Source: a virus
Virus record (IMG/VR): IMGVR_UViG_3300036766_000385
Location: 1-48,511 of that record
Direction: 5' to 3' (one strand)
DNA: 48,511 nucleotides
Below are positions 861-48,511 of the stretch, in pieces (the first letter of the stretch is position 1; each line of letters opens with the position of its first letter). A program made the translations under genes and the position numbers. The notes beneath the pieces are model-generated. The model searched no databases. It was not told the DNA's origin and saw nothing but the letters and a program-made list of their open reading frames with translations.

Positions 861-1122
861 ACCTAATCCTCCGTGTTATTACGCGCTTATCTAGATGAAA
901 CCCCCGCCCCCCGAAAAGGGAACAGGGGCCTCATCAACTAGTTGGAACGTGCCAACTTGACACGCTCCCCGACCGGCCGAGCATTAGACTCGGCCGATTA
1001 CGGGAGAGTGTCGAAGGCCCCTACTTATTCCCTACGTTACGCGCGAAGACCGCGCGCTACTCGGCGCGCAGCCGCTTAGGGAACTGCGCACTCGTACCGC
1101 GTGGAGCAGGGACGCGAGCGCG
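861..1122. other. Non-coding gap, strongly structured
   Basis: These 262 bases hold no credible gene. They lie between the stop of the upstream leftward gene (1123) and the amidoligase start (860). Most of the space is taken by the multibranched fold at 918-1032. A further GC hairpin at 1052-1069 has a 6-bp stem and the loop tactcg. Confidence 0.7.
918..1032 (-). ncRNA. Candidate three-way-junction RNA in the leader of the amidoligase gene
   Basis: Read directly from the bases, a closing helix pairs 925-931 with 1015-1021 (7 perfect bp), extended after an internal loop by 918-922 with 1028-1032. Inside it lie a small hairpin (941-945 with 952-956) and a long arm: 959-969 with 1002-1012 (10 of 11 pairs), topped by 974-981 with 989-996 (8 perfect bp, 7-nt loop). 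This is a three-way junction. Because flanking genes are on the minus strand, the likely transcript is leftward, with the element ending about 58 nt before the amidoligase ATG. The minus-strand segment gcccc within the closing helix could instead pair with ggggc about 13 nt further on. That would be a switch-like alternative, but no clear U-run follows. I recognise no Rfam family. It could be a riboswitch-like leader or a stable small RNA. Confidence 0.5.
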
Positions 1123-2340: not shown

Positions 2341-2900
2341 GACTGAGACCTCCGATGCTGGGCCGACCGGGATGGCCGACCTCTACTTGTGTCTGCGCGC
2401 GCGCAACGACCGGATGGTCGTCGCCCAAGTGCGCGACGAGACTGGCGTGCGACGAACCGCGCAGTACATGCGTGCAGTTCTGTGCGCAGCCGTGCGCCGT
2501 TCGTGTGTGCGCAGGGACACACGAAGCTAGCCGACCGAGCAACACGTGGTGCGGCGACGCAACGTAGTGCCTAGGGCCTTCGGCCTGACGGCCTGTGCAA
2601 GATGCACAAGACATGAGGCGATGACGCTGCTAATGAGATTCAGTCTCACTACGGTGGGCTGACGGTGGACTGTCCAACCTATCAAGAGGGGACCTAACCG
2701 CACAACCGACAACCGGCTCACACTGCATACATAGACAACCATGAATATATATACATAGCGCGGCGGCGCGCCCGAAAAGATGACGCAGGCACCCGGGTAG
2801 GGGGGTTTTTTGGCTGGCTGAGCGTGGCGGGCGGACATGCCACCCTCTCCGTTTTTTGACCCCATTTCTCGACCAAAAATAGATGACCACGAGACCATGC

Positions 2901-3007
2901 ATGTAGGGTTGCTCACGCTCAATATGTAGGGTATGTATGACTATTTAGAAAGTCCCTTGAGAGATTCTCGCGTAGAGAGTTTCCGATATTCCCTACATAC
3001 CCTACAT
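2901..3007. repeat. Operator/iteron-like inverted repeats
   Basis: atgtagggtatgta at 2924-2937 is perfectly inverted at 2994-3007 (14 bp). The octamer atgtaggg occurs twice on the plus strand (2901, 2924) and twice on the minus strand (2991-2998, 3000-3007). A 9-bp palindrome gagattctc (2961-2969) lies between the arms. Such clustered symmetric sites are typical of a repressor or initiator protein. Which protein binds is unknown. Confidence 0.7.
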
Positions 3008-3087
3008 ACCCACCATCAATAGAACGGATGTTCATAGCCTTCGACCCAAGATGGTCAACTTTCGCAAAAAGCCGTCATACCCGTCAT

Positions 3088-20801: not shown

Positions 20802-21779
20802 GTGACACAAACGACTACTGGCACGAGTAACTTTGACAAGACGGTCGAAGTGCTCATTCGTAAGCAGCTAGAGGAAGAGTTGCTTCCTACGCTGCCTCAT
20901 CTCATGCCGGGCAACTACATCCAGGCGAACTTCCTCAAGGGAAGCAACGATACGATGCGGTTCCTGCGTATGGCCAATCTTGCTCTCGCTACAGACGCGA
21001 ACATCATCGCGCACAGCGCTGGTACTGCTCCCTGGCTTACTGAGGGTGCTTCACCCACGCCCCAGGGTCTTTCATTCAGCTTCGAAGAGTTCACTTCCTA
21101 TCAGGCAGGTCAACGTGTCGAGCTGACAGACAAGGCTCTATTGGAGTCCCCCCTGAACCTCATGGCCGAGGCTGCCAAGCAGGTTGCTCGTCAGGCTGCT
21201 GAAATCATCGACAACTACGTCGCCCAGGTGGTTGCGGCTGGAGTGAACGTCCTTTACGCTGGTGCGGGCAACGTAGCCCGAACCGACGTAGGGTCTACTG
21301 ATGCTATCACCGGGTCGCTCGTGCGGCGTGCGGTTGCAAGCCTCAAGGCTGATAGCGTTCCCTCCTTCGCGGGCGGGGGCTATCGTGCCATCATCCATCC
21401 GAACGTTGTCTTCGATTTTGAAGAGGACAATGATGTGGGTGGTTGGCTCGATGCGGCTCGTTATGCCGGGTCTGCCCCCATCCTCAATGGTGAGCTTGGC
21501 AAGTATGCCAATGTTCGCTTCTACGAGTCACCCCGGGCGCGAATCTTCACGGGCGGCGGAGCTGGCGGAGTGGATGTGTACAGCACATTCATCACTGGGC
21601 CTGCTTCATATGCCTTTGGCGATTATGGCACCTTGACGAGTCACTATGTGGCTCCGGGTGGGCATGGCGATGAACTGGCGCAGGTTGCGTCAGTCGGTTG
21701 GAAGGCCATGTTTGGTGCTATGCTCGTGGATGAAGCTGGCGCACGGTACGTTCGTATCGAAAGCGCTACGGGCGCATAA
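20802..21779 (+). CDS. Major capsid protein, N4-gp56 family type
   Basis: 325 aa. The GTG at 20802 has GAAGGG about 8 nt upstream; the GTG at 20793 touches the ribosome site and is less likely. Segments LTDKALLESPLNLMAEAAKQ, AAEIIDNYVAQVVAAG, GGYRAIIHPNVVFDF, NGELGKYANVRFYESPRA and VASVGWKAMFGA follow the order of the N4-gp56-like HK97-fold capsid family. It forms the icosahedral shell. Hairpins flank the gene on both sides. Confidence 0.88.
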   Translation: MTQTTTGTSNFDKTVEVLIRKQLEEELLPTLPHLMPGNYIQANFLKGSNDTMRFLRMANLALATDANIIAHSAGTAPWLTEGASPTPQGLSFSFEEFTSYQAGQRVELTDKALLESPLNLMAEAAKQVARQAAEIIDNYVAQVVAAGVNVLYAGAGNVARTDVGSTDAITGSLVRRAVASLKADSVPSFAGGGYRAIIHPNVVFDFEEDNDVGGWLDAARYAGSAPILNGELGKYANVRFYESPRARIFTGGGAGGVDVYSTFITGPASYAFGDYGTLTSHYVAPGGHGDELAQVASVGWKAMFGAMLVDEAGARYVRIESATGA

Positions 21780-21786
21780 CTGAATA

Positions 21787-21841
21787 GGCGCCCCGCTGGC
21801 CACTGCTGGCCCGTAGGACCATGCTGAGTCAGCGGGGCGTC
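21787..21841 (+). terminator. Large inverted repeat after the capsid gene
   Basis: cgccccgctg (21789-21798) pairs with cagcggggcg (21830-21839), a 10-bp perfect stem. The loop contains a second small hairpin (ggcca/tggcc). No T-run follows, so it may be a processing site or 3' stabiliser of capsid mRNA, or a factor-dependent stop, rather than an intrinsic terminator. Confidence 0.45.
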
Positions 21842-44796: not shown

Positions 44797-44806
44797 TCAG
44801 TGTAGC
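44797..44806 (-). promoter_or_regulatory. Extended -10 promoter candidate for the leftward arm
   Basis: On the minus strand the short gap before the 43944-44762 gene reads TGTGCTACACT, a TGn-TACACT box about 35 nt before that start. It is one of the few gaps in the leftward arm. No -35 box is evident. Confidence 0.35.
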
Positions 44807-44843
44807 ACAGCACACGGCGACGCTACGCCGCCGTGCGACGTGC

Positions 44844-45110
44844 TCATCCAGAGGCTCGGCACAGTGGATACATAGCCATCGTGCCATCGTCCAACTCAAC
44901 AAAGGGACCGGGCAACCGGCGCAACAAAGGCATGGCATCCAACCATGCTTCGTCGGTCGGGTCAATGACCAATCGTTCATCCTCAAAGTAGACGCCGAAC
45001 GTCAATCCGTCGCCATAGTCAAGGATGACGCCGCACCAACCCACTTGGGGCTGCACATAGTCACCCACGATATGTGCCTGACGGCCGCGATGGATAGCGT
45101 TCTGACTCAC
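44844..45110 (-). CDS. Hypothetical protein (88 aa)
   Basis: GTG at 45110 in GTGA overlap with the previous stop, with GGGAG about 8 nt upstream. The beta-rich QAHIVGDYVQPQVGWCGVIL followed by GLTFGVYFEDERLVIDP suggests a small barrel. A longer frame runs back into the repeat region of the previous gene and is unlikely. Confidence 0.6.
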   Translation of the reverse strand: MSQNAIHRGRQAHIVGDYVQPQVGWCGVILDYGDGLTFGVYFEDERLVIDPTDEAWLDAMPLLRRLPGPFVELDDGTMAMYPLCRASG

Positions 45111-45568
45111 GACGCACTCCCGAAGATGGTCCGACCGTTCCACGTCGAGTCCGGGCACTCGGCCCGATGCTGGGCTTCGAGAGCAGGCGCGTAGGCCGCC
45201 CGTGCCGTGTTGTAGGCCACCCACGCCGTGCTGTAGGCCGCCCACGCCGTGTTATAGGCCGCCCGTGCCGTGCTGTAGGCCGCCCACGCCGTGTCGTAGG
45301 CCGCCCGTGCCGTGCTGTAGGCCGCCCACGCCGTGTTGTATTCGCCCGGTAGTGGCCCCACCACCGGGCGAAACTCGCGCAGACGGCGGGCGCGCTCGTG
45401 TTCCGGCTTATTGGACAGGATGTAGGCAATGCGGCTTTCAGCAGGCTCGGTGAGGGTCTCGATGAGCGTCTCGTGATGCAGACACCAGACAGCATCGCCT
45501 ATATTCGAGTTAGCGAAGGCAGCGCGGCAGGCTGCCGCTTCGATTTTGATGGATTGCAAAACAGTCAC
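45107..45568 (-). CDS. Tyr-heptad-repeat protein (8 heptads), paralogue of the gene at 1123
   Basis: 153 aa, GTG start overlapping the previous stop. The N-terminal ~70 aa form a folded helical region with Cys/His residues (CLHHETLIETL). Residues 77-132 are eight perfect-length heptads of the type YNTAWAA / YSTARAA, alternating Trp and Arg, coded by 21-nt DNA repeats at about 45173-45340. The C-terminus ECPDSTWNGRTI matches the end of the 1123 gene. The repeat may form a coiled coil or a rigid spacer. Confidence 0.65.
   Translation of the reverse strand: MTVLQSIKIEAAACRAAFANSNIGDAVWCLHHETLIETLTEPAESRIAYILSNKPEHERARRLREFRPVVGPLPGEYNTAWAAYSTARAAYDTAWAAYSTARAAYNTAWAAYSTAWVAYNTARAAYAPALEAQHRAECPDSTWNGRTIFGSAS
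45173..45340. repeat. 21-bp tandem repeats (42-bp higher-order unit)
   Basis: About eight units of the taggccgcccacgccgtgtt type in the 45107 gene, alternating cccacg and cccgtg to give a 42-bp period. Three related units lie at about 1275-1338. The two arrays are close on the circle (about 4.2 kb apart) and share runs of 20 bases or more. Confidence 0.8.
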
Positions 45569-46365: not shown

Positions 46366-47337
46366 CTAAGCCTCTGTCAGCTCGTAATCCATGGACCGCT
46401 CCTCTTCGCGAGCATCATCTGCTTCGGCATCGGCACCGACGCGATGACTCATGTCGATATATGTGTTGCCGTCAATGCAATACACATCCCCGAATGTGTA
46501 GCACGTGTCACACATGACACTCTCGGGCCAATCGCCATCTTTCGAGCGGTCGATGTCCTTGACGGCCGTCAGGGTATGACCGCCGTTGAGGTACTGATAC
46601 GGTCGGCCTACAAGACGGTCCGGCAGATACGCGTCCTCGCCCGTCTTGGCCGGAATAGCGATGGGCGACTTGACGCCTATGGGCCATGTTTTTCTCGCCG
46701 CTCTTTCAGCGGCAGTCAGCGCCATACCCCAATCATCATCATCGCAGGCGGATAACTTACCCCCGTGATAGAGGTACGTCGTCGTAGGCTTGTGATTGGA
46801 TGAATACCACAGACCACCGTCCCACGTGCCATCTTTCTCTTGCAGGTTGACCGTTTCCGTAGCCGTCATGAGGACCAGCCGCGACCATCCGATAGACTGC
46901 TCGACAAGAAATGTGATGGCCTTGTCTGCCCACCAACGCGAGGGCAGATGCGCCAGCACGTCGCGAACGAAGACCTCTGTATCCGACTCACTGGTCTCCG
47001 TGTCAATATCAATGATGCCATTGTGAAACACGAACACGCGGCCCTCATGGGCATCCTGATACTCGAAGGGATGAGCATGCGATTGCGCGCTCGGGCCATG
47101 TGTGGCCATGCGGAAGTGCGCCACATACTCGATGTCGGAGCGCCGGTCCACGCGTTTGAGCGTCTTGCGAAACGCCTTTTTCTCGGCTGGCCCGAAACGC
47201 TTGGAGTACAACTGCCCAGCCTCGCGCCATGCGACCCCAAAACCATCGGGATGACGCTGGACAGCCGTGTCTATGACTTGTGTCGGAATGTTCGCCCCGC
47301 GACCTTTCGCGGTCGGGCGAAGCGCGATCATACACAT
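46366..47337 (-). CDS. Class II glutamine amidotransferase (Ntn hydrolase)
   Basis: 323 aa. The start is set at MCMIALRP so that the catalytic Cys is residue 2, as the family requires after Met removal. The open frame extends 14 codons further, overlapping the previous gene. AHFRMATHGPSAQSHAHPF and VFVFHNGIID are the glutamine-binding R-x-x-T-H and H-N-G motifs of YafJ/GATase_6 type domains. It hydrolyses or transfers the glutamine amide. The C-terminal ~120 aa carry extra Cys (CDTCYTFGDVYCID). Two genes upstream is the amidoligase; such pairs are reported for phage amidoligase systems. Confidence 0.85.
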   Translation of the reverse strand: MCMIALRPTAKGRGANIPTQVIDTAVQRHPDGFGVAWREAGQLYSKRFGPAEKKAFRKTLKRVDRRSDIEYVAHFRMATHGPSAQSHAHPFEYQDAHEGRVFVFHNGIIDIDTETSESDTEVFVRDVLAHLPSRWWADKAITFLVEQSIGWSRLVLMTATETVNLQEKDGTWDGGLWYSSNHKPTTTYLYHGGKLSACDDDDWGMALTAAERAARKTWPIGVKSPIAIPAKTGEDAYLPDRLVGRPYQYLNGGHTLTAVKDIDRSKDGDWPESVMCDTCYTFGDVYCIDGNTYIDMSHRVGADAEADDAREEERSMDYELTEA

Positions 47338-47347
47338 GATGGACGTG

Positions 47348-47617
47348 CTACCTACCTTCCTGCTGCCCATCGGCAGCATCTATGGGTGACCTCAGCGCGG
47401 TCATAAACGCATCGTATGCGGCTACTGAGGCATGCGCTGCTTCTGCACGACGCGCTATACCTTTCTCACGGATAGTCTGATATGCCTCCTCCACTTGCGT
47501 CGTAGGGCGATGCCATGATGGCTCGCGCGGTTCCGCGTGATTACGATAGCCTACAGCTTGTGCACGAGCGCGCAGAGCTAACAAGATGGGAGATTGACGG
47601 TCTATATCAAACATCAT
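47348..47617 (-). CDS. Small protein between amidoligase and amidotransferase
   Basis: 89 aa from ATG 47617, overlapping the amidoligase stop; it ends 10 bp before the amidotransferase start. RQSPILLALRARAQAVGYRN is followed by a helical, Ala/Glu/Arg-rich part (QVEEAYQTIREKGIARRAEA) and a polar tail ending GQQEGR. No family recognised. Its fixed place between the two amide enzymes makes it a candidate partner or substrate. Confidence 0.6.
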   Translation of the reverse strand: MMFDIDRQSPILLALRARAQAVGYRNHAEPREPSWHRPTTQVEEAYQTIREKGIARRAEAAHASVAAYDAFMTALRSPIDAADGQQEGR

Positions 47618-48511
47618 CGGATGCCTGCGGCCATTCGATAGCGGTCTGCTGTCCATAGCGTTCCGCATGAAGTATGCTATGAAACCCATCATGACCCACT
47701 CTCAACTCGCAGAACCACTCCCCACCGGGTCGCACATGACGACACATGCGTTCCGGGGGCGCCTCGTCATCCCAGTAGACACCCACATTCGGATACCCAT
47801 GCTGGCCGCTGTGACCCAACGTCAGCTCACAGTAGTATCCGACACCATCAGGCTGCTGGGAGTTACACGTCTCGTTCTCGTCGTCATAGTTCATACACTC
47901 ACCATCACGGCAGCCGTCACCACATTCACACGCATCATCCCGGTCATCTTCCCTCGCCTCATCCGGCTCATTAGTGAGGTCCGCGATGAGGTCCGGCTCT
48001 AAGATGATGGCTTCCGGTGCTAATACGAGGTCAGGATGCGGTATCTGTTCCTTCGTGGACTTATCGAACGCAGCACGAAACTTCTCGCGCATGAAGGACA
48101 TAAGTTCCGGATACTCGTCCGACTCAGCCACCCAGCGCATGAACGCACTTACCTGAATGCGATGCCCGCTATCACGAGTGTACTCCACCATCGCGGCGGT
48201 CCATTCCAGCTTCGCATAGAAACGGTCTATGCGCAGTGTGCCACGAGGTAAGCGAAACTCGATGCGTCCCTCGTTACTCGCATTGAGCACGCAATAGCGG
48301 TCTTGCGACGCCCTTCCATAGCGCATAACCATGTACGCCCACTCGGCAAGATTAGCACGTGCTAACTCGCCCCCAAAGCTCGCCCAACGGTTTGTGCTAT
48401 GCAGGGTCCGCTGACTCATCCGCATTGACCAACGCTGATTATGGACGACCATTTGAGCAAACCGCGCAAGATGTATCGAGTTCGCGAACGCATTCGTTCC
48501 GATGTTGATAT
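47607..48511 (-). CDS. GS-like amidoligase, C-terminal part with two zinc knuckles
   Basis: Continuation of the gene starting at 860. Within this stretch the stop is at 47607; bases 48268-48511 repeat 1-244. The catalytic domain ends near residue 360 (GRIEFRLPRGTLR at 288-300). An acidic linker follows, then a Cys-rich patch (CECGDGCRDGEC) and two copies of a C...CEL-x2-GH-x-G-x-H knuckle (C421/C433/H439/H443 and C462/C473/H479/H483). The same knuckle core occurs in the 1924-2340 protein. The knuckles may recruit the substrate or partner. The copies of codon 245 differ (Ala at 128, Thr at 48395). Confidence 0.88.
   Translation of the reverse strand, partial: INIGTNAFANSIHLARFAQMVVHNQRWSMRMSQRTLHSTNRWASFGGELARANLAEWAYMVMRYGRASQDRYCVLNASNEGRIEFRLPRGTLRIDRFYAKLEWTAAMVEYTRDSGHRIQVSAFMRWVAESDEYPELMSFMREKFRAAFDKSTKEQIPHPDLVLAPEAIILEPDLIADLTNEPDEAREDDRDDACECGDGCRDGECMNYDDENETCNSQQPDGVGYYCELTLGHSGQHGYPNVGVYWDDEAPPERMCRHVRPGGEWFCELRVGHDGFHSILHAERYGQQTAIEWPQASDDV
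48268..48511. repeat. Terminal direct repeat, right copy
   Basis: Second copy of bases 1-244. Removing it gives a 48,267-bp circle on which the amidoligase frame is continuous. Confidence 0.9.

Follow-up and report, generated by a model that had tools for sequence, protein, structure and literature searches.

At the R1.1 site of the T7 early mRNA, a stem of 60 nt lies between genes and contains a 4/5 asymmetric internal loop (PMC6121014). We analyzed a 48.5-kb window, the whole of an IMG/VR virus record, in which one stem-loop, the long arm, resembles R1.1: it is intercistronic, spans ∼55–60 nt with ∼20 pairs, includes an asymmetric internal loop, and forms on the mRNA strand (959–1012, minus), where it amounts to about two turns of imperfect double-stranded RNA. 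It differs from R1.1 in its internal loop (3/2 vs. 4/5) and in the extra, window-specific hairpins that follow it, and the likeness should be read as a resemblance, not a test. The initial annotation had described the surrounding element (918–1032) as a riboswitch-like three-way junction ahead of an amidoligase gene. The reading that we favor, with our confidence about evenly divided, is that of an intercistronic stem-loop on the amidoligase transcript, either an RNase III processing stem or an mRNA-stabilizing one.

The record ends in a 244-nt direct repeat (1–244 and 48268–48511) with a single mismatch (position 128, C/T), which suggests that the phage genome is probably complete and circularly assembled. 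Encoded in it are a primase/helicase, a large terminase, a portal protein, and capsid proteins. Rightward genes extend from ∼3.2 to 32 kb, and a leftward run extends from ∼48 kb through 1–2.9 kb. The element takes up only part of a 262-nt gap (861–1122) within the leftward run, and its long arm lies 110 nt past the stop codon of a small repeat-protein gene (Table 1). Tandem repeats of 21 nt (seven residues) belonging to one family occur in two leftward genes, at 1287–1377 and 45163–45358. The gene downstream of the element, which encodes 506 aa and runs across the record’s end junction to 47607, resembles an amidoligase, because its homologue L118, in the relative G006, reaches the cut-off of the PF12224 (Amidoligase_2) profile (22.4 bits; cut-off, 22) and because a GATase_4 (class II glutamine amidotransferase) gene lies nearby (46366–47379). 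The window protein itself scores 14.1 bits with the same profile, under the cut-off.

Table 1. Position of the element’s parts and of the flanking genes in the window (G001, the relative that shares the long arm)
Feature	Position	Strand	Details
Amidoligase-like gene, 5′ part	1–860	−	ATG at 860; SD-like GGAGG at ∼868–872
Competing hairpin	894–935	−	Fold; 18–19 pairs, including several G-U; loop UUUU; not followed by a U-tract
Closing helix and extension, 3′ strand	918–932	−	Fold; doubles as 5′ strand of competing hairpin
Short second arm	940–957	−	6 pairs; ΔG about −6
Long arm (stem-loop)	959–1012	−	21 pairs; 1×1 mismatch; 3/2 asymmetric internal loop; 5-nt loop; ΔG −36.4 kcal/mol
Closing helix and extension, 5′ strand	1014–1032	−	Fold; diverged in G001
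GC-rich conserved block upstream of long arm	1038–1075	−	38/38 identical in G001, then 1-nt indel
Upstream gene	1123–1398	−	91 aa; 21-nt tandem repeats; stop codon at 1123

On the minus strand, 918–1032 has an MFE of −66.3 kcal/mol against −38.3 ± 3.8 kcal/mol for shuffles of the same composition (z −7.3), none of which folded as well (0/200), a result that favors the initial annotation. The plus strand reaches the same z (−7.3) but with a weaker energy (−59.1 kcal/mol). When the 48.5 kb were scanned in 120-nt windows, the element ranked among the two most extreme structured places in the record, and the calculations confirmed its predicted folding as real. Both of the arms that had been proposed, one of them with 18 near-perfect pairs, are present on the minus strand, and the distance from the element to the ATG, given before as ∼58 nt, measures 57 nt. 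Much of the fold energy is contributed by the long arm alone; the stretch 959–1015 has a z of about −6.9, and no other 60-nt hairpin in the window is as strong. Strong hairpins are frequent in these GC-rich genomes, within genes as well.

The only other genome found to carry the element was IMGVR_UViG_3300033233_000069 (G001), with an amidoligase 72–75% identical and a large terminase 97% identical to those of the window. Its copy of the long arm, the second strongest 60-nt hairpin there, is identical at 50 of 54 positions, and no pair is broken: the differences fall in the loop, in the 1×1 mismatch, or in one A-U to G-U change, which keeps pairing solely in the minus-strand RNA. The long arm and the GC-rich block together are identical at 88 of 92 positions compared with 51 of 72 in neighboring noncoding bases (Fisher p 1.4e-5); region 1013–1037, with the diverged 5′ closing strand, matches at 18 of 25. 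A coding explanation by a shared reading frame was excluded by 1-nt indels between the two genomes. Structural constraint on the long arm is nevertheless suggested rather than proven, because 20% of random transition sets of four substitutions likewise break no pair and because identity of at least 90% is seen in 32% of the aligned 54-nt stretches genome-wide. Compensatory changes in the element between the two sequences, the only two available, number zero pairs, which counts against the initial annotation. In G001, a ribosome site with a short ORF (∼60 codons) follows within about 30 nt of the arm and precedes the amidoligase gene; because the arm there lies directly before the SD of a different ORF, the comparison indicates that it does not belong to amidoligase as such. 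In G006, a more distant relative (54% identity), the amidoligase gene is preceded by a different GC-rich sequence; the element is absent from this genome, and a covariance model found nothing there. Upstream of the amidoligase gene, G006 carries many GGTTACGG repeats.

Around the long arm, the proposed 7-bp closing helix and 5-bp extension were recovered with 9 pairs, counting G-U (1014–1022 with 924–932), and 6 pairs (1027–1032 with 918–923). When the flanks were shuffled with the long arm fixed, only 0–1 of 1,000 sequences matched the observed energy, and when the 3′ flank was swapped for random genomic 41-mers, 10 of 3,000 did. Since matches were so seldom reached, the closing helix exceeds chance in this genome. 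The on/off alternative pairing suggested for its 3′ strand is also real, as a hairpin in which 917–935 pair with 894–912; the segment 893–958 folds better than 1,000 of 1,000 shuffles. In folds of lengthening transcripts, an equilibrium calculation and not one of kinetics, the closing helix prevails with the 3′ end between 925 and 900 and is gone at 895. In full-length folds, the competing hairpin leads by 7.7 kcal/mol, and in the finished transcript it should replace the closing helix.

This arrangement recalls an attenuating riboswitch, where P1 and terminator overlap, in that one closing-helix strand is common to the competing hairpin. A ligand-sensing leader with the three-way junction as its aptamer would account for the P1-like overlap, for the clean hand-over as transcription passes ∼900–895, for a closing helix rarer than chance, and for the enzyme gene that follows. 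Unlike such a riboswitch, the element has no U-tract, no conserved aptamer, and no Rfam family, and the arrangement is not retained in G001. G001, the sole other genome that keeps the long arm, has no counterparts of the 3′ closing strand, the second arm, or the competing hairpin; G006 has the amidoligase yet lacks the element altogether. From these absences, the three-way junction appears, on present evidence, to be private to this genome. We found neither an aptamer core conserved with covarying helices (only the long arm is common to the two genomes) nor an expression platform: there is no U-tract terminator, no SD sequestration was seen, the SD lies in neither competing hairpin, and the lead of the competing fold also speaks against a switch. 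Thus, of the leader RNA claimed for the amidoligase gene, a structured, strand-specific RNA on the strand of an amidoligase-like gene is supported, and the riboswitch and the conserved three-way junction are not. We consider a riboswitch very unlikely; it retains a little weight on account of the unusual overlap between the closing helix and the competing hairpin. A genome-specific attenuator is likewise possible but unlikely, and we rate it very low; in it, the junction would form first on the nascent RNA and then yield its closing strand to the 18- to 19-pair hairpin, and would thereby time amidoligase expression or sense a signal for it. We know of no earlier leader RNA that controls an amide-forming phage enzyme, and a riboswitch here, if true, would be a first.

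The main rival to the favored stem-loop is a terminator or attenuator that lacks a proper U-tract, which we hold to be doubtful, at about half the weight of the stem-loop: the long arm or the 894–935 hairpin would stop or slow RNA polymerase once it has passed the upstream gene and so lower amidoligase expression. Stable GC-rich hairpins do occur in gaps of this genome, one of them just past the capsid gene, and the closing helix, by taking up the 5′ strand of the 894–935 hairpin, would act as an anti-terminator. If only the GC part of that hairpin is counted as stem, it is followed by UUUCAUCU. A scan of 700–1700 nevertheless showed no terminator-like site, and no U-tract follows the long arm in either genome (AAGUUGGC in the window, CACGCUCG in G001). 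Neither hairpin has the immediate U-tract that, with a GC-rich stem, defines an intrinsic terminator. Because the gap yielded no promoter-like site, termination within it would leave the amidoligase gene silent.

The inverted repeats might instead act as DNA, as a replication origin, a protein-binding site, or a recombination site, which we judge improbable. Several of them adjoin, the GC-skew minimum is no more than about 2 kb away, and the block at 1038–1075, identical in G001, holds three spaced GCGCGC palindromes, from which either of two mutually exclusive hairpins can form; the fold energy of this block by itself is not above chance. Against a DNA element, G-U pairs favor the minus-strand RNA, most clearly in 894–935 (−29.9 kcal/mol vs. 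−14.5 kcal/mol on the plus strand), and the sole paired change in the long arm still pairs only through G-U. Better origin candidates also exist at 2923–3008, bounded by a perfect 15-nt inverted repeat, TATGTAGGGTATGTA (2923–2937/2994–3008). This repeat falls within a set of TATGTAGGGTATGT repeats (2880–3016) at a divergent-gene boundary near the GC-skew minimum, a possible replication origin or operator.

Homologues of the element were sought by several routes. Rfam 15 at the gathering score returned only tRNAs for the window, and relaxed E-values added only chance-level matches, so that the Rfam comparison proposed at the outset gave no match to the element. A DNA similarity search of phages and plasmids and a search of genome contigs found none. 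In IMG/VR, pattern scans for the arm that left its stems free recovered G001 and otherwise chance sequences with dissimilar folds, and the block at 1038–1075 was found in G001 alone. An alignment search with the amidoligase returned the same two relatives only. The two-sequence covariance model gave no convincing match in other related records; one match (L121; E 0.13) was dismissed as GC-rich and a poor fit to the model.

These searches also bear on whether the element is an independent small RNA of the phage, whether pRNA-like or antisense, which we regard as highly improbable. The fold is compact and very stable, pRNA is close to the element in size, and the element can be drawn, like phi29-type pRNA, as a three-way junction of comparable size. 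Rfam, however, held no meaningful match even at relaxed E-values and none to the phi29-type packaging RNA that had been offered as an alternative. The three-way form is not conserved in G001 despite the 97% identity of the large terminases, the element sits within a run of genes on its own strand, and no promoter-like site was found in the gap.

The intercistronic stem-loop finds company elsewhere in the genome. A strong hairpin without a U-tract (21786–21840, plus strand) lies within 10 nt of the capsid stop (21779), and the outer 12 pairs of its stem show two double compensatory changes in G001. In three more relatives, strong but unrelated hairpins occupy this post-capsid place or lie near it, and a further gap hairpin without a U-tract (∼44805–44850) is common to the window and G001. 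The long arm fits this set of U-tract-free gap hairpins; like the 3′-stabilizing or terminator hairpins of capsid genes, it is GC rich, lacks a U-tract, and stands at a gene boundary. It differs from the post-capsid hairpins in its greater distance from the stop codon (theirs is 5–10 nt) and in having no compensatory changes. Inside the capsid gene itself, the mRNA of 21401–21520 (plus strand) is much more stably folded than its shuffles (z −5.8; 200 shuffles).

If the intercistronic stem-loop reading is right, the long arm would lie in the leftward mRNA between the small repeat-protein gene and the amidoligase gene and would separate or protect segments of this polycistronic message. By analogy with T7 R1.1, host RNase III, whose recognition sites are not predictable from sequence alone, may cut the arm’s two turns of imperfect double-stranded RNA, or the arm may block exonucleases; in either case, the amidoligase part of the message would gain its own 5′ end and half-life. 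The closing helix, the second arm, and the competing hairpin are an addition found in this genome only. On this evidence, the element is one of several U-tract-free gap hairpins, a feature of a poorly sampled phage lineage.
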